Source: a virus. Taken from it: 23,379 nt of DNA. How positions within the stretch are numbered: position 1 is the first letter of the stretch; each line of letters starts with the position of its first letter. The stretch is from positions 1 through 23,379 of IMG/VR virus record IMGVR_UViG_3300035698_003048, one strand, 5' to 3'. Positions 2,172-18,761 of this stretch are shown piece by piece. A model generated the notes under the pieces. That model worked only from the letters and a program-made list of their open reading frames with translations. It made no database searches and was not told where the DNA came from. A program made the translations under genes and the position numbers.

Positions 2172-2333
2172 ATGATGAATAAGTATCAATGTAAGTATTG
2201 TGATAAACCTAGAGAGTTTGTTAGATTCATAGGTACACCTTCAGTTAGAGAGAATGTATGCTTTGACAAAGAGTGTGATATGAAGAGTCAAGTTAGACAT
2301 GGCGTGTATAAGCCTATAATAGGTACAAGATAA
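2172..2333 (+). CDS. Small zinc-finger-like protein
   Basis: This 53-residue protein (52 if the second ATG at 2175 is used) follows AAGGGGGA. It has a CxxC pair (C7, C10) and a second pair (C30, C35), consistent with one zinc site, and many basic residues. Its TAA stop overlaps the ATG of the radical SAM gene (TAATG), so the two are probably coupled. No family is recognised. Confidence 0.55.
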   Translation: MMNKYQCKYCDKPREFVRFIGTPSVRENVCFDKECDMKSQVRHGVYKPIIGTR

Positions 2334-2707
2334 TGCCTTGCGAAAACTATAAGCCTGAGTATCCGTACAATAGTATAGTATTACCATACTCATATAACTA
2401 TATAGAAGCATATCTAACATATGCTTGTAATATGAAGTGTGACTATTGTATCAATAAATACAGTAATAAACCTAAGAGCAAGCAGCTATCTGGTACGGAG
2501 TGGGTGAAGAACCTTAATAGGATTGCAGCTCGATCTGATCTCCCTATTACATTGGGAGGCGGTGAGCCTACAATGCACCCTGACTTCTATGAAATAGTTA
2601 ATAGGATAGACCCTAGTATCAAGCTAGACCTACTCACTAATGGTATGTTTGATGTAAGAAAGTTTTGCATCTTATGTACACCCCGACAGATTCAAGAGAG
2701 ATGCTAA
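2333..2707 (+). CDS. Radical SAM enzyme, N-terminal part (frameshifted)
   Basis: This frame contains the radical SAM signature C32-x3-C36-x2-C39 (YACNMKCDYC), whose cysteines hold the 4Fe-4S cluster that cleaves S-adenosylmethionine. It also has the SAM-contacting GGGEPTMHPDF motif and the following beta strand (LDLLTNG). The frame runs off register at the T4 run 2663-2666: removing one T makes the protein continue as FASYVHPDRFKRDAKYASIR and join the downstream frame. As read, it ends early at a chance TAA... TAG-type context with a 124-residue truncated product. The start overlaps the upstream stop (TAATG). The substrate is unknown. Possibilities include nucleoside, peptide or sugar modification. 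Confidence 0.75.
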   Translation: MPCENYKPEYPYNSIVLPYSYNYIEAYLTYACNMKCDYCINKYSNKPKSKQLSGTEWVKNLNRIAARSDLPITLGGGEPTMHPDFYEIVNRIDPSIKLDLLTNGMFDVRKFCILCTPRQIQERC

Positions 2708-3224
2708 GTATGCATCAATACGTATAAGCTTCCATCCAGGGTATAGTGATGTAAGTAAGCTTATATATAATACTGAGTTCTTGTTGACTAGAGGATATAG
2801 TGTAGGTATATGGGCTGTAAATCATCCTGAGCATGTACATCTTATTAAGCTTGTACGTAAGATATCAGGTAAGGCAAAGATAGACTTTAGGCTTAAAGAG
2901 TACTTAGGTATGTATGAGGGTAAGATGTATGGTACATATACATATCCATATGCTGTAGATGGTGTAGCTAAGGAACGTCTATGTCAACCTACTGAGCTGC
3001 TGATAGCTCCCAATGGTGATATACATAGGTGTCACTATTGTTTATACAAGGGTACTGATGCATATGCCAATATACAAGATGTTCTAGTAAAACCGCAAGA
3101 CTTCTACAAGAAATGTGAGTCTTGTGGCTTATGTAACTTATGTGATATCAAGAGCAAGTTCAATAGGTTTCAAGAGCTTGGTCATTGTTCAGTTAATATA
3201 ATACCAACTGGGGAACCTAAATGA
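2658..3224 (+). CDS. Radical SAM enzyme, C-terminal part with extra cysteines
   Basis: This is the continuation of the radical SAM gene in the next frame. It is open from 2658 and could be started internally at TTG 2781, which has no convincing ribosome binding site. It carries the rest of the TIM-barrel-like core and a cysteine-rich C-terminus (CQPTELLIAPNGDIHRCHYC, then CESCGLCNLC), resembling SPASM/twitch-type auxiliary Fe-S cluster regions. Joined with the upstream half it would give about 296 residues, normal for a radical SAM enzyme. The TGA stop overlaps the ATG of the next gene. Either a real one-base insertion, a sequencing error or programmed slippage splits the gene. Confidence 0.72.
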   Translation, partial: ESFASYVHPDRFKRDAKYASIRISFHPGYSDVSKLIYNTEFLLTRGYSVGIWAVNHPEHVHLIKLVRKISGKAKIDFRLKEYLGMYEGKMYGTYTYPYAVDGVAKERLCQPTELLIAPNGDIHRCHYCLYKGTDAYANIQDVLVKPQDFYKKCESCGLCNLCDIKSKFNRFQELGHCSVNIIPTGEPK

Positions 3225-4360: not shown

Positions 4361-4744
4361 ATGATAGAACACCCCGAAGCACCAAAGCAGTCCCTTGGAG
4401 ATGTAATTGATAAGCTGTCCATACTCATACGGAAAGTACAGTTTGGTGAGACTCAAGCCATGAAGGAGTTAGAGTATCTGCAGATTGCCCTTACTAATAT
4501 GGGATATGATGGTTCTCTCATAGTGACCATAATTGAAGTGGCTCAGGCTAACTTTGAGATATGGGAGAGAGAGAACAAGCTAAGAAATGGTGGTGAAGAT
4601 GAGTTTAGTTTGGCTGAGATAGGTAAGAGAGCTATTGAGATAAGGGATTTCAATAGGAAGAGAGTGAAAGCGAAGAATGAGATTAACCGCATAACGGAGC
4701 TTGGCTTTAGAGAGTTCAAGGTTAAACACAGAAGTCAATGCTAG
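4361..4744 (+). CDS. DUF6165-like protein
   Basis: This 127-residue helical protein follows TTGGAGGAGTA and is the first gene after the sigma70 promoter. The pattern SLGDVIDKLSIL near the start, IWERENKLRN in the middle and the C-terminal EIGKRAIEIRDFNRKRVKAK followed by NEIN resembles the DUF6165 family as I remember it, a family of unknown function often seen near sugar or surface-polysaccharide genes. It ends ten bases before the GTG start of the E1-alpha-like gene, so they are probably co-transcribed. No catalytic residues are known. The family assignment is from memory and moderately sure. Confidence 0.6.
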   Translation: MIEHPEAPKQSLGDVIDKLSILIRKVQFGETQAMKELEYLQIALTNMGYDGSLIVTIIEVAQANFEIWERENKLRNGGEDEFSLAEIGKRAIEIRDFNRKRVKAKNEINRITELGFREFKVKHRSQC

Positions 4745-4754
4745 TGGAGATATC

Positions 4755-5384
4755 GTGGAGATAACACCTAAGAAGTTAATAGCTTTTGAGAGTAAAGTTG
4801 CTAAACTCTTTAAGCAGAAGAAGATACGTGTCCCTATACACTTATCTGGTAGTGTAGATGGCTCCTATGAGAGGTTCTTGGTGGACCTCTTTACTAAAGT
4901 ACGCCCTGTCGATTATGTATTCTGTACTTGGAGAAATCACATGCACTACCTGCTTAAAGGGGGTAGCGAGAAGAAGTTACTTGATGAGATACAAGGTAAG
5001 ACTACTGGTATCTGTAAGGGTAAAGCGGGGTCTATGCATATCATAGATCACAAGCTGAGGTTTTACAGCTCAGCTATTGTAGGTGGTAACTGTGCTATAG
5101 CTGTAGGAGTAGCTATGGGGATTAAGAGGAATAAGGGTAAGGAGCATGTGTACTGCTTTATAGGAGATGGGGTTACAGATACAGGGTTCTTTTTTGAATC
5201 ATTAAGATACGCTGCTAATCGATGGCTACCTATTACCTTTGTGGTGGAGAATAATGATAGAAGTGTTGATGCTAGTGTGGAAGAGAGATGGGGTAAGAAT
5301 GTTAATACCGATAGCTTCTATAAGTATGTACGCTTTGAAGCTAAGTATCCACATGCAGGTATTGGAGAGTTCGTAGCGTTCTAA
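4755..5384 (+). CDS. Minimal thiamine-diphosphate enzyme, E1-alpha-like subunit
   Basis: The protein matches the thiamine-diphosphate-binding half of 2-oxoacid dehydrogenase E1-alpha subunits: WRNHMHYLLKGG, then GKTTGICKGKAGSMHI, then GNCAIAVGVAMG, then the cofactor motif GDG (137-139) with NN (166-167) 26 residues later, and a following SVEERWG-like loop. This motif binds the Mg-diphosphate of thiamine diphosphate. At about 209 residues it lacks roughly the last 100 or more residues of normal E1-alpha proteins (about 320-370). I chose GTG 4755, five bases after GGAG and ten after the previous stop. An upstream TTG at 4701 would add 18 unconvincing residues. Its partner subunit lies at 5626. 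The donor substrate is unknown. Confidence 0.82.
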   Translation: MEITPKKLIAFESKVAKLFKQKKIRVPIHLSGSVDGSYERFLVDLFTKVRPVDYVFCTWRNHMHYLLKGGSEKKLLDEIQGKTTGICKGKAGSMHIIDHKLRFYSSAIVGGNCAIAVGVAMGIKRNKGKEHVYCFIGDGVTDTGFFFESLRYAANRWLPITFVVENNDRSVDASVEERWGKNVNTDSFYKYVRFEAKYPHAGIGEFVAF

Positions 5385-5398
5385 ACAAAGGAGGAGAT

Positions 5399-5590
5399 AT
5401 GGGAGGAGGATTAAAAGGAAGTGGAGCATATGCTAAGTATGAAAGAGGTGAGTTACTCACAAGAGGTCAGGCTATACTAGCACATTGTTATCAGTGTAAT
5501 GGTGGCCATACAGGGGGTCTGAGCGATTCTAAGGACTGTTTAGGTACTACCTGTCCATTGTATCAGTTCTTTCCTTATAAGGGAAAGTAG
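5399..5590 (+). CDS. Small four-cysteine zinc-binding-type protein
   Basis: This 63-residue protein follows AAGGAGGAGAT and lies between the two thiamine-diphosphate enzyme subunits. It has C30-x2-C33 and C47-x4-C52 with a closing CPLYQFFPYKGK tail. This pattern (CxxC followed by DCxxxxCPLY..F.Y) recurs in small phage proteins I have seen, probably binding one zinc ion, but the function is unknown. Its position could mean it is a structural partner of the E1 pair or simply a separate cargo gene. Confidence 0.7.
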   Translation: MGGGLKGSGAYAKYERGELLTRGQAILAHCYQCNGGHTGGLSDSKDCLGTTCPLYQFFPYKGK

Positions 5591-5625
5591 AACCCCTAAA
5601 CGGCTGACGAAAGGATTACAGCATA

Positions 5626-6141
5626 ATGAAATACAAAGATCAAATAACTAAATCAATGGTTAAGTTAGCTAAAGACCCTAAGGTAGTATTTGTGGGGTAT
5701 AATACAGCTAAGGGCCACAGAATGTATGGCACCTTAGCTAAGATACCTAAGAAGAGGTGTATAGAGACACCTGTATGTGAGAACCTTATGGTAGGACTAG
5801 GTATGGGTATGAGCTTAAGGGGTATAAAGCCTGTAGTATGCTTTGAAAGGCATGACTTCCTACTCATAGCTATGGATGCTATAGTCAACCATATGGATAA
5901 GCTACCTGAGTTAAGTGGGTATCAGTTTACATTCCCTATGCTTATACGTACTGTAGTAGGGCATAATGAACCACTAGACCCAGGCTTACAGCATACACAG
6001 AACTTCACTAGGTTACTCAGAGACTTTACTAAGAACATATGGATAGAGCAGTTCAGTGATATGTTTGATGTAACTAAGTTCTATGATGGGTATAACTTTA
6101 AGGAACCAGCAATAACTGTGGAGTATAAGAGCCAATATTAA
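5626..6141 (+). CDS. Minimal thiamine-diphosphate enzyme, E1-beta-like subunit
   Basis: This 171-residue protein matches the pyrimidine-binding domain of E1-beta/transketolase-like subunits. IETPVCEN contains E52, aligned with the glutamate that activates the thiamine N1'. It is followed by GLGMGMSLRGIKPVVCFE, the AMDAIVNHMDKL helix, and GLQHTQ with H123 at the catalytic histidine position. The C-terminal transketolase domain of full E1-beta proteins (about 325 residues) is absent and replaced by a short unique tail. An active site would need the alpha-like subunit at 4755-5384 to supply the diphosphate-binding half. The ATG follows AAAGGAT. Decarboxylase/acyl-transfer or ketol-transfer activity is inferred, with unknown substrate. 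Confidence 0.82.
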   Translation: MKYKDQITKSMVKLAKDPKVVFVGYNTAKGHRMYGTLAKIPKKRCIETPVCENLMVGLGMGMSLRGIKPVVCFERHDFLLIAMDAIVNHMDKLPELSGYQFTFPMLIRTVVGHNEPLDPGLQHTQNFTRLLRDFTKNIWIEQFSDMFDVTKFYDGYNFKEPAITVEYKSQY

Positions 6142-10224: not shown

Positions 10225-10585
10225 GCGAATAGAGGGAGTGGGGCCTTGTTGGAGATACGTGAATCTACAACAGTGGAGAAAGTCTGATCCTATGTATCAA
10301 GACGGACACCGTAATCCTAATTGGAAAGGTGGTGTTTCTAGATCTACTATAAGATGATATACCAAAGCTATCCTAGATTTGAATGGTATAAATCAGTATG
10401 TGTGCATGAGCTGTGGTAAGGTTAGTAAGATTAGACACAATGTACACCATAAAGATGAAGACCGTTTAAATGCTAGTATAGATAATCTAGAGGTTTTGTG
10501 CAGTCGTTGTTACAACTCAGGTTGGGTCGGTGCTAGGCACAAGCGAAAAAGGAGTGTGGAGAATGGGAGATTCAAAAAGAATTAG
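10217..10585 (+). pseudogene. Degenerate HNH homing endonuclease inserted before the polymerase gene
   Basis: From GTG 10217 the frame reads SKRIEGVGP, then an HNH-type N-terminal segment with the typical NPNWKGG motif, then an in-frame TGA (10355-10357), then an HNH zinc core: CMSCGK, VHHKDEDRLNASIDNLEVLC and CSRCYN. The final catalytic/metal histidine of the usual CxxCH is Tyr (TAC for CAC), and the stop could come from CGA to TGA, so two C-to-T changes would inactivate it. A TTG-started fragment of 68 residues from 10379 remains open. The first nine residues repeat the N-terminus of the following polymerase fusion (SKRIRVEGVGP), indicating insertion at that site. Confidence 0.7.
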
Positions 10586-12842
10586 AGTTGAAGGTGTTGG
10601 TCCCTTAGATGCTAAGATTGTTATTGTTGGTGAAGCTTTAGGAGCCACCGAAGAACGAGAAGGACTACCATTTGTAGGTACTGCAGGTCGTATCCTAAAT
10701 GGTATACTAGATGAAGTAGGTATCAAGAGAGAAGAAGTATATATAACTAATGTATATAAGTACAGACCCCCAGGTAATGACATAACTAAGGTAGATAAAG
10801 CTGAACTTGACGGTGCTGCAGCCGAGCTAGCCGAGGAGCTAACCGCCCTGCACTCGAAGAACATTGTAGTACCGTTGGGGTCTACCGCTTTGAATGCCAC
10901 ACTAGGACTTAAGCCCATTACCGCATGGAGAGGTAGTGTACTACAGAATGTAACAGGTACTAAGCATATAGCTACCTTTCATCCTGCAGCCATTGCACGT
11001 AACTGGAGCTACAGACCTATAGCTGTATGTGACTTCAAGAAAGTAGCTAAAGAGAGCCTCTCTTATGATACATATAGAATAGCACGTAATATGAAGGTCA
11101 TGCCTACCTTCGAAGAGGTTGTTAAATGTTTAGACAATCTCATGACAGAGTTATATGTAGCCTTTGACATAGAGACAGAAACAGGACAGATCACATGCAT
11201 ATCCTTTGCTTGGAGTGGGACAGATGTCCTATGCATACCCTTCTGGTTGGGTAACAGTGGTTCATTCTTTTCAGAAGAACAGGAGATGGAGATATGGAAG
11301 AAGATAAAGGAGGTGCTAGAGAATCCAAACGTGTTCAAGATAGCACAGAATGCACAGTACGATATGACTGTCCTGAGGGATCTCTATGGTATATCAACAC
11401 AAGGTTTATGGTTAGATACTATGATAGCATTCCATGCTTTATATCCAGAGTTGCCCAAGAACTTGGGTATGCTCTGCAGTCTATATACAGACGTGCCTTA
11501 CTATAAGTACCAGCGTAGGACTGATAGTATGGAGGAGTTCTTTAGATATAATGCTATGGATAGCCTTGTCACATATGAGTGTGCTATGAAGATACATGCA
11601 GAGATGGAAGATGCAGGTGTAACAGACTTCTACTATGAACACATGCACTCTCTCATAGAACCACTGATGGAGATGACACGTAAGGGTGTGAGAATCAATA
11701 CACCTCTACGTAAGGAAGCTATCAAAGACCATAAGAAACAGATAGAGGAGCTGACAGCAGGATTAGATGCTGAAGTAGGACACGAGCTCAACACAGGATC
11801 ACACAAGCAGATGACAGGGTGGTTGTATGGTGAGCTGAAACTACCCAAGCAGTATAAGAGAGTAGGTAAGTCTCGTAAGATCACAGCAGATGCTGAGGCC
11901 CTAGAAAAGCTAGGTGCTATGCATGACATACCAGCATTGAATAGTGTGTTAAAGATACGAGAGTTGAAGAAGATAGTCTCTACATACCTAGACATCAAGT
12001 ACGACAAGGACGGAGACGGTGAACGTGCTCGTACTGCATACCTCATTAGTGGTACTGAAACTGGTAGGCTCTCCTCTCATAAGAGTGTCTACAACACTGG
12101 TACTAACCTACAGAATGTACCCAAGGGTATAGCTCGTCAGATATTCATACCCGATGAAGGTAAGGTGTTCATCAATGCTGACCTCTCACAGGCTGAAGCT
12201 AGAGTAGTAGCCTTCTTAGCTAATGAGACTAGGCTTATCAATGTATTCAATGGTGGTGGTGACATACATCGTAAGAATGCTGCTGCTATATTTAGGAAGA
12301 AGGAAGAAGATGTAACTAAACGAGAGAGACAGTTAGCTAAGAAAGTAGTACATGCATCTAACTATGGTATGGGAGTGAGAACATTCGCTAAGCAGTTACA
12401 CATACCAGAGAAGGAAGCTAAGGTACTCTTGAATCAGTACTTCGCAACATACCCCAAGATTAAACTATGGCAGATGCAGATAGCGTATAATCTGAAGCAG
12501 TCTCGTACTCTTATTACACCTCTAGGAAGGAAGAGGACCTTCTTCAATGAGTGGAGTCAGAGCCTACAGAAGGAGGGGTATGCATACATACCTCAGAGCA
12601 CTGTAGCTGATATATTAAACATGGGACTACGGAGGGTATATGAAGAGTATAAAGGTACGGATGTTGACTTACTGTTGCAAATACATGACGCTATACTGGT
12701 TCAGGCTCCTGAACATAAGGTTCGTGAGGTCGCACAAAGGATTAAGGACTTGCTTACTATACCTGTGGAGATCAACCGTAGGACATTGGTTATTCCAGTT
12801 GATGTAGAGACGGGACCTAATTGGAATGAGCTTACTGGTTGA
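10563..12842 (+). CDS. Uracil-DNA glycosylase / DNA polymerase A fusion
   Basis: The 759-residue protein has an N-terminal family 4/5-like uracil-DNA glycosylase domain (about 1-165: VGEALGATEEREGLPFVG from residue 22, and HPAA at 140) without the CxxC Fe-S cysteines of family 4. A 3'-5' exonuclease follows (DIETE from D202; NAQYD; YNAMD), then a family A polymerase: motif A NADLSQAEAR (D540), O-helix RQLAKKVVHASNYG (H597 at the E. coli F762 position), and motif C QIHDAI (D709, with Ala for the usual Glu). There is no 5'-3' exonuclease. It is the likely replicative polymerase. ATG 10563 follows AAGGAGTGTGGAGA. The first 22 bases overlap the HNH remnant. The end overlaps a convergent gene by 11 bases. 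Confidence 0.92.
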   Translation: MGDSKRIRVEGVGPLDAKIVIVGEALGATEEREGLPFVGTAGRILNGILDEVGIKREEVYITNVYKYRPPGNDITKVDKAELDGAAAELAEELTALHSKNIVVPLGSTALNATLGLKPITAWRGSVLQNVTGTKHIATFHPAAIARNWSYRPIAVCDFKKVAKESLSYDTYRIARNMKVMPTFEEVVKCLDNLMTELYVAFDIETETGQITCISFAWSGTDVLCIPFWLGNSGSFFSEEQEMEIWKKIKEVLENPNVFKIAQNAQYDMTVLRDLYGISTQGLWLDTMIAFHALYPELPKNLGMLCSLYTDVPYYKYQRRTDSMEEFFRYNAMDSLVTYECAMKIHAEMEDAGVTDFYYEHMHSLIEPLMEMTRKGVRINTPLRKEAIKDHKKQIEELTAGLDAEVGHELNTGSHKQMTGWLYGELKLPKQYKRVGKSRKITADAEALEKLGAMHDIPALNSVLKIRELKKIVSTYLDIKYDKDGDGERARTAYLISGTETGRLSSHKSVYNTGTNLQNVPKGIARQIFIPDEGKVFINADLSQAEARVVAFLANETRLINVFNGGGDIHRKNAAAIFRKKEEDVTKRERQLAKKVVHASNYGMGVRTFAKQLHIPEKEAKVLLNQYFATYPKIKLWQMQIAYNLKQSRTLITPLGRKRTFFNEWSQSLQKEGYAYIPQSTVADILNMGLRRVYEEYKGTDVDLLLQIHDAILVQAPEHKVREVAQRIKDLLTIPVEINRRTLVIPVDVETGPNWNELTG

Positions 12843-13259: not shown

Positions 13260-14270
13260 TTAAACCTCCTTTAACAAGTTCATCTTCTGTAATCTACCAT
13301 ACCTAGCTACAATATCTCTGCCTATGTCAGTACGATACTGTAGGTTCCTACCACTGATATGATGCTTCAGCGTCCTGTATATCCTCCGTGCAGCTTCGGC
13401 ATGAGTATCCCCCCTTGCTGCAATATACCCCAGACACCCTGACTGCAATCCGCAGACCCACTCTCCAGATAGTTTGGTTAAATCTATTAGCCATGAATGT
13501 TTAAGGTTGGCATGTGATATGCCATGTATAACTTCAGGTACTTGTGGTTTACCTGCAGGGTATGGGTACACACTCACCATTACACCTGCTGCCCACTTCG
13601 ACTGAGGTTTCATCGGTTTGGATAAGTTATCAAGAACTGATGTGAGTATAGCAGTCTTGTTCTTAGCTGTGTTCTCGAATATCATATATGAGTATGGTAA
13701 CTGCATACTAGCAGATATATCATCTACGAACATCCCATCTTCATTACATACACATGACACACAGAAGGGACCTTGATGTGCTGACTTTCTAAGGAACCTC
13801 TCCAACGGATTACACACCTCTGCAAGCAGCTTATCAGCTCCAGCCCCGAAATAGGCAATGTAACCAGTCGATGGGAGAGTAACACCTAAGTCCCCTGTGA
13901 GCATCTTATGATAGTTAAACACTATAAACTTAGAGACAAACTCATTACCATTGAACCAAGTAACGATGGTAACTCTTTCACCTTTGGTATGGCCATCCGT
14001 CTTCTTATACCCTATAGCATCTATTATGTTACCCTTGTACTCATTGTCTGACTCAAGTAGAGCAGCCCAACTTGATGCACCGAGTAGCCTTGTACCCTGT
14101 TTACGTAGTTGGGGAGCTATCTTAGCATACTCCTGAGAGTCTGTGATAGCTATTGAGTAAGCTACCGTACCTTGGGCTGCTGTTGCTACTGTTACTGCAT
14201 GTCCTTCATGTTCTAGGTGTGGTATGAATCCATTCGCACACCCACCCTTACTCAAGATGAGTAATCGCAT
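13260..14270 (-). CDS. PurD-like (phosphoribosylamine-glycine ligase-like) protein, shortened
   Basis: The 336-residue protein resembles PurD over several stretches: MRLLILSKGGCANGF at the N-domain start, LLGASSWAALLE (about 62-73), GERVTIVTWFNG (97-108), GDLGVTLPSTGYIAYF (126-141), and a C-terminal GCLGYIAARGDTHAEAARR with YRTDIG (312-317). PurD normally joins glycine to phosphoribosylamine in purine synthesis and is about 420-430 residues. Here the ATP-grasp segment with the lysine/glycine-rich nucleotide loop, expected between about 75 and 95, is missing. It may be catalytically altered or act in a different ligation or binding role. Its position among virion/lysis genes is unusual. Strong AGGAGGT ribosome binding site. 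Confidence 0.72.
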   Translation of the reverse strand: MRLLILSKGGCANGFIPHLEHEGHAVTVATAAQGTVAYSIAITDSQEYAKIAPQLRKQGTRLLGASSWAALLESDNEYKGNIIDAIGYKKTDGHTKGERVTIVTWFNGNEFVSKFIVFNYHKMLTGDLGVTLPSTGYIAYFGAGADKLLAEVCNPLERFLRKSAHQGPFCVSCVCNEDGMFVDDISASMQLPYSYMIFENTAKNKTAILTSVLDNLSKPMKPQSKWAAGVMVSVYPYPAGKPQVPEVIHGISHANLKHSWLIDLTKLSGEWVCGLQSGCLGYIAARGDTHAEAARRIYRTLKHHISGRNLQYRTDIGRDIVARYGRLQKMNLLKEV

Positions 14271-18293: not shown

Positions 18294-18761
18294 TTACTCT
18301 CCCTTCAGTTTAGCTACATCCTCATATGATATGTGCATTTCGTCAAAGTCTTTCGCTATGATCTCTTCTTCTACCTTATCTAAGGATGTCTGCTCTGTAA
18401 CATGAACAGTGATCCATATTGTATCCTCATGTATATATAATATCCTCTTTGTCCCAGGCTCTGTAATACCATGGAAGGGTGCTTTTATTCGCAGTATACC
18501 TTCATCAGTCATCACAGAACATCTACCTCGCATGACAAAGTAAGGATGCTTCTTCTTGTGTATCTTACTAGTTATGAGCATACCCGCAGGCATGTGTATC
18601 TCTCTAACATATGCACCATCTACAAAGGTGTGCTTCAAAGGACAAGCTGCGTCACCAAAGACAGCACCTGGAAGTTGAGCAAGCTTTTCCTCAAATGCCA
18701 TTATACCACCACGTACCTTCTCTTTACTTATAGGTATTATCTTTACTGTTTGTAAATCCAT
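18294..18761 (-). CDS. Cupin-like phage protein
   Basis: This 155-residue protein reads as one beta-barrel: YVREIHMPAGMLITSKIHKK, then HPYFVMRGRCSVMTDEGILR, then APFHGITEPGTKRILYIHED and TIWITVHV. This is the pattern of a small cupin-fold family widespread in tailed phages, often beside tail genes. Most cupins bind a metal through His/Glu. Here histidines are present (SKIHKKKHPYF, YIHED), but the full two-motif metal set is not certain. The start at 18761 overlaps the previous stop (TAATG). An internal ATG at 18701 would give a shorter protein. Role in the virion or in host chemistry is unknown. Confidence 0.68.
   Translation of the reverse strand: MDLQTVKIIPISKEKVRGGIMAFEEKLAQLPGAVFGDAACPLKHTFVDGAYVREIHMPAGMLITSKIHKKKHPYFVMRGRCSVMTDEGILRIKAPFHGITEPGTKRILYIHEDTIWITVHVTEQTSLDKVEEEIIAKDFDEMHISYEDVAKLKGE

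Follow-up and report, generated by a model that had tools for sequence, protein, structure and literature searches.

A virus-encoded E1-type thiamine-diphosphate enzyme predicted to retain only the PP and PYR domains, and the radical-SAM genes that accompany its relatives

The window considered here is the whole 23,379-nucleotide stretch of the IMG/VR virus record IMGVR_UViG_3300035698_003048. An initial annotation had described two of its genes as the cofactor halves of a shortened E1-type thiamine-diphosphate (ThDP) enzyme. This raises the questions of whether the two genes form a reduced but genuine enzyme or are pieces of a broken one, and of which acceptor such an enzyme could serve in a virus.

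The first gene (4755..5384, plus strand) encodes the alpha-like subunit, which corresponds to the PP half. Its open frame covers 4701-5384, and translation from the likely GTG start at 4755, which is preceded by AGTGGAG and corresponds to where the two nearest relatives start, gives a protein of 209 aa. Significant matches were obtained to Pfam E1_dh (PF00676, E=1e-19, profile positions 33-164 of 300 only) and, in a PDB sequence search, to human PDH E1-alpha (E=2e-20). The GDG motif occupies residues 137-139 and the NN motif residues 166-167, with a spacing of exactly GDG-x26-NN; the C-terminus falls shortly past NN, and the C-terminal half of E1-alpha is missing. An AlphaFold model of this subunit (pLDDT 89.7) gave top Foldseek matches that were all PDH E1-alpha structures.

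The second gene (5626..6141, plus strand) encodes the beta-like subunit of 171 aa, corresponding to the PYR half, with matches to PF02779 (Transket_pyr, E=7e-9) and to the E1-beta chains of the PDB (3e-12). Two of its residues, E52 and H123, are invariant across all 35 aligned relatives. With the beta family profile, the alignment to E1-beta covers residues 4-176 of 329, indicating that the PYR domain is complete and that the transketolase C-terminal domain (TKC) alone is missing. Profile searches detected neither Transketolase_C (PF02780) nor a lipoyl domain (PF00364) in the window record (a fragment of 23 kb) or in any of nine related virus records; control profiles matched in 14/14 genomes. 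An E2 protein of the host is possible. The motif and the two catalytic residues named by the initial annotation were all exactly as placed, the shortening of both subunits was confirmed by the profile coverage, and the reported lack of an E2 partner was borne out in these records. It is very probable that alpha and beta belong to the ThDP-binding enzymes and, as far as sequence can tell, together they are an E1-type enzyme cut down to the PP and PYR domains. A Cys-rich ORF of 63 aa lies between them (5399..5590, plus strand) with no Pfam or PHROG match, and it is probably not a part of the enzyme, since relatives have unrelated ORFs or none at that position.

Several known systems were compared with this pair. 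ComDE and RhiEF are minimal enzymes with one domain per chain. ComDE sulfopyruvate decarboxylase and RhiEF phosphonopyruvate decarboxylase provide precedent for heteromeric ThDP enzymes (PMC12141560) and belong to decarboxylase-type superfamilies, whereas phage alpha and beta match E1_dh and Transket_pyr instead. A decarboxylase of this type was ruled out because alpha matches PF00676 (1e-19) much better than PF02775 (4e-7) and beta has no PF02776 match. The split-gene transketolase of Carboxydothermus (ChTK) carries PP and PYR on separate chains (PMC7661550); an arrangement of Transketolase_N plus PYR-TKC was also ruled out here, as alpha is of the E1_dh type and beta lacks TKC. With the alpha2beta2 E1 of pyruvate and branched-chain 2-oxoacid dehydrogenases the phage pair shares the PF00676 PP domain, the PF02779 PYR domain, the GDG..NN motif, the catalytic Glu and the beta His. 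It differs in that alpha lacks the C-terminal half, beta lacks TKC, no E2 or E3 is encoded, and the reduced forms make a clade of their own.

The extent of this clade became apparent from homology searches. A single fused protein of 405 aa, PHROG 34187, covers both alpha (6e-42) and beta (3e-42), and as both halves are found on one protein the match is not due to chance. Its PHROG entry lists the function as unknown, and its chain corresponds to the fused protein encoded by the cyanophages S-SM2 (SSM2_198) and P-TIM68 (gp190), annotated as 'transketolase central region-containing protein', a cyanophage copy having been annotated already in 2010. By scanning with the beta alignment, at least 244 viral contigs and 29 cellular contigs were found to encode this mini-E1 family, and a viral-contig scan with alpha alone returned no relatives, its patterns being too specific. 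Eighty of the 244 viral contigs were kept. Among the 115 loci read, 95 encode a fused chain of ~400 aa, and the split forms come from DPANN archaea, some bacterial MAGs, a 735-kb phage (L004) and the phage group of the window. In a maximum-likelihood tree, the mini forms make one clade (100/100 against full-length E1), with split forms basal and fused forms nested; the branches of the window and of L127 are long, and their exact placement is therefore unsure.

Since every relative lacks TKC, the reduction is inherited and does not reflect a broken gene. The possibility of gene fragments broken in this genome only was rejected accordingly, with TKC-less alpha/beta genes present in more than 240 viral contigs. 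The same numbers overturn the earlier impression that such a reduction is unusual in a phage: it is a family trait, mostly borne by one fused chain and already contained in public phage genomes under vague names. These results provide a coherent identity for PHROG 34187 and the cyanophage 'transketolase-like' genes, and imply that E1- or transketolase-type ThDP enzymes without TKC can persist as stable gene families and not as fragments alone. Acquisition by phages of a common CPR/DPANN gene was considered and rejected because the family is rare there, occurring in 5/194 sampled genomes of one DPANN phylum and 1/192 of one CPR phylum.

The fused relatives also provide information on fold and genomic setting. 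The structure predicted for one of them (pLDDT 92.6, pTM 0.93) models the composite active site indirectly, and its superposition on a single-chain transketolase from the PDB was poor (TMq 0.66, rmsd 9), so the packing of its domains cannot be read from the model. A Zn-dependent alcohol dehydrogenase gene lies directly upstream of the fused gene in 84 of the 95 loci, and a PfkB kinase gene, nearest to the HldE heptose-kinase domain (rfaE_dom_I, 7.6e-32), is found within 5 kb in 87 of the 95. SDR epimerases, an HldE-C-like nucleotidyltransferase and a cupin are further genes at many fused loci, which include LPS-type clusters of cyanophages; the functionality of cyanophage LPS genes was described as not known by Sullivan et al. 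2010 (PMC3037559). The cyanophage protein of PHROG 34187 and the window's pair are homologous, with PP followed by PYR, no TKC and no E2. The former differs in being one fused chain of ~400 aa and in its neighbors, which are the alcohol dehydrogenase, the kinase and the nucleotidyltransferase rather than radical-SAM genes.

At the non-fused loci, radical-SAM genes are the recurrent companions. Two families of them were defined in this analysis and labelled c17 and c39. Of 20 non-fused loci, 17 have a radical-SAM/SPASM gene of c17 within 5 kb. The other three are the window, on whose 23 kb contig no c17 gene was found, and two loci where a fused gene is truncated by the contig end. Directly upstream of alpha, the window encodes a DKL protein of 127 aa (4361..4744, plus strand) that is conserved with alpha and beta in the DKL-bearing phage contigs. 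It is distantly similar to DUF4254/DUF6165, and an archaeal homologue matches PF14063 (4e-5) and PF19662 (5e-4); archaeal homologues adjoin glycosyltransferase-like genes. A scan for DKL identified seven further contigs, all of which have alpha, beta, c17 and c39 close by, in varying gene order. DKL as an obligate subunit was rejected, since it is present in 2/27 enzyme-bearing records and absent from the acetolactate-synthase-type cassettes described below.

A scan for c39 yielded 17 clear viral contigs. When these and the phages of the DKL scan were grouped at 80% c39 identity, with the window excluded, 15 distinct lineages were obtained, and all 15 carry c17 together with a nearby ThDP enzyme, which is of three types. 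The first is the mini-E1 (L139, L140, L144, L122, L124 and L127). The second is a split mini-transketolase without TKC and with a beta of 150-158 aa (L141, L142, L143, L146 and L155), differing from ChTK, in which ChTK-C retains TKC. The third is an acetolactate-synthase-like enzyme with chains of 550-580 aa (L145, the L148 group and L154), encoded by two ORFs in L150. PF02775 independently detected a ThDP protein in 15 of the 17 records searched, and in the two that it missed alpha subunits are present by family profile. As homologues of the mini-E1 alpha were found in only 8 of 50,697 phage records, the association of radical-SAM and ThDP genes is not a matter of chance. This pattern suggests that a ThDP-dependent C-C transfer step is conserved while the enzyme performing it is exchangeable. 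As separate observations on these contigs, the c17 gene of one cassette (L122:4404-6434) holds an intein with Hint, intein splicing and LAGLIDADG domains, and L144, L145, L150 and L154 also encode a chaperonin-like protein that by eye is of the thermosome type, suggesting archaeal hosts.

With regard to novelty, DKL had no match in isolated phages and c39 none in annotated phages, and no paper describing a radical-SAM/ThDP cassette was found among the open-licence literature. The apparent novelty lies in delimiting the TKC-less clade and in recognizing a recurrent cassette whose ThDP enzyme is of three interchangeable types. More tentatively, at somewhat under an even chance, bacterial and archaeal viruses may share an undescribed cassette of two radical-SAM enzymes and an interchangeable ThDP carboligase (two of the three superfamilies being PP/PYR-only), which would make a new class of carbon-extended or branched sugars or another modified metabolite, with the TKC-less E1 clade as a dedicated enzyme. 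The data also point to virus-borne radical-SAM/ThDP chemistry in small co-expressible proteins, either fused chains of ~400 aa or pairs of 150-230 aa.

The genes beside several cassettes are of the sugar type. In L145, a GDP-mannose 4,6-dehydratase (5e-122), which would be a candidate supplier of a 4-ketosugar, and a class I/II aminotransferase adjoin the cassette. Epimerase/dehydratase-family genes are found beside those of L150 and L155, and in L146 a putative DegT-type sugar aminotransferase and a formyltransferase, both from ORFs read by eye, lie between c17 and c39. In a complete podovirus genome, a glycosyltransferase gene comes directly after a c17-like gene and is succeeded by PhyH, methyltransferase, NodB-like and glycosyltransferase genes. 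The initial suggestion of a sugar acceptor is favored by this genomic context.

Based on these features, alpha and beta are proposed to assemble as the two subunits of a ThDP enzyme that belongs to the E1/transketolase superfamily, consists of PP and PYR only and would activate a C2 donor such as pyruvate or hydroxypyruvate. As there is no lipoyl partner, the acyl or ketol unit is proposed to pass to the carbonyl carbon of a small sugar-like acceptor, in the manner of AviB1/AviB2, Pau11/Pau12 and YerE, the last of which is acetolactate-synthase-like. Together with the c17 and c39 radical-SAM families and DKL, the enzyme would then form a cassette making a building block, namely an extended or branched sugar, that is probably destined for a glycan or glycolipid on the surface of the host or of the virion. 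Precedents for C2 addition to sugars exist in AviB1/AviB2 and Pau11/Pau12 (E1-like pairs) and in the ThDP flavoprotein YerE, the pairs of avilamycin and paulomycin biosynthesis, respectively, being proposed to use pyruvate for introducing a C2 branch on a 4-ketosugar (PMC4425429, PMC4753412). The phage enzyme, likened to them by description, is also an E1-like alpha/beta pair without E2; Pau11 and Pau12, at 325 and 345 aa, are approximately of full-length E1 subunit size, unlike the phage subunits, and the sugar-biosynthesis setting of AviB1/AviB2 is clear for relatives but not in the small phage group of the window. Taken part by part, a carboligase rather than a dehydrogenase is probable, and a sugar-type acceptor is somewhat favored. 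Sequence and context show the fold, the catalytic residues, the loss of TKC, the lack of an E2 and the co-occurrence with the radical-SAM pair; the donor, the acceptor, the order of the radical-SAM steps and the biological purpose are what we infer from this setting, and the explanation as a whole, a mini-E1 carboligase in a radical-SAM/DKL cassette that builds an unusual sugar, has about an even chance of being correct.

A true PDH-like 2-oxoacid dehydrogenase E1 that feeds a lipoyl complex of the host, or an artificial-type electron acceptor, and boosts host energy metabolism would agree with the best sequence and fold matches, which are to PDH E1-alpha and E1-beta, and with the retention of the beta His and of the R and His in the active-site segment. 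However, the missing C-terminal half of alpha and TKC of beta, the absence of an encoded lipoyl protein, the sugar and radical-SAM enzymes as companions, and the replacement of mini-E1 by transketolase- or acetolactate-synthase-type enzymes in other cassettes make this highly improbable.

The nature of the product is less evident in the window's own group. Two relatives of the window, G001 (46 kb) and G002 (40 kb), have three radical-SAM genes followed by DKL and alpha/beta within the replication region. No glycosyltransferase-2 (GT2) or epimerase gene was found in these small phages, so either host glycan enzymes would be needed there or the product is something else. The same enzyme and cassette might thus yield a modified nucleotide for DNA hypermodification, or a cofactor, instead of a glycan precursor. 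In accordance with this, the genes of the window group are embedded in the replication region, surrounded by a RepA-like ATPase, a PD-(D/E)XK nuclease and a fusion of uracil-DNA glycosylase (UDG) and PolA, and GT2 and epimerase genes are lacking. On the other hand, every gene of the cassette has relatives in glycan-type loci elsewhere, and no thymidylate-synthase-like or base-hypermodification gene was noticed among the genes read, leaving a nucleotide or cofactor product quite unlikely and a sugar building block as the preferred reading.

Another issue is the state of the window copy itself. Its c39 gene is broken by a frameshift near 2640-2680, with a 5' part at 2333..2707 (plus strand; PF04055 1.4e-11 and the c39 family alignment) and a 3' part at 2781..3224 (plus strand), in which homology resumes in another frame at 42-46% identity to relatives and the open frame extends upstream beyond the TTG at 2781. 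In related phages c39 is intact, and the frameshift could be real or an assembly error of a metagenome contig. Moreover, of 33 family positions that are nearly invariant, alpha differs at 6, including GGN to GSY and HRxxYH to WRxxMH, compared with three at most in any other member; the R and His of the active-site segment are retained, and beta departs from none of its 15 near-invariant positions. The earlier statement that all key positions survive therefore stands for the cofactor and catalytic residues and fails for the alpha family positions. In view of the c39 frameshift and these departures, the window copy may be under relaxed constraint, though the family is not.

It is accordingly conceivable that what is left here is a remnant, decaying or damaged in its sequence, of a module functional in relatives, to which its long tree branch would also conform. 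Nevertheless, alpha and beta are both open and of full length with all cofactor and catalytic residues kept, beta retains 15/15 near-invariant positions, alpha folds confidently in silico, and a lone frameshift may have arisen when the metagenome contig was assembled; a remnant is considered unlikely. Of the claim that this is a purposely reduced active enzyme, the reduction holds as an inherited trait and the activity of this copy is uncertain owing to the c39 frameshift and the divergent alpha, although activity in this very phage is still judged fairly likely.

Some additional observations were made in the course of the analysis. Foldseek searches against BFVD showed short transketolase-like proteins in Campylobacter phages. 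In the cultured phage CP21 (L158:11873-25767), a transketolase-like PP protein of 192 aa has GDG altered to SDA, and several radical-SAM genes and a weak GT2 match lie ~5-13 kb from its gene; neither this protein nor the radical-SAM proteins clearly fit the families described above, and they serve as a lead only. In the window, a 770-aa gene on the plus strand (10530-12842) fuses uracil-DNA glycosylase (PF03167, 1.5e-26), a 3'-5' exonuclease and a family A DNA polymerase, with homologues in G001 and G002. A 336-aa protein on the minus strand (13260-14270), at the start of the virion-gene strand, is kept in both relatives and has a weak match (1e-5) to GARS_C, the phosphoribosylglycinamide synthetase C domain. 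Further along the same strand (18294-18761), a cupin-like protein matches PHROG short tail fibre/adhesin families (1e-34).
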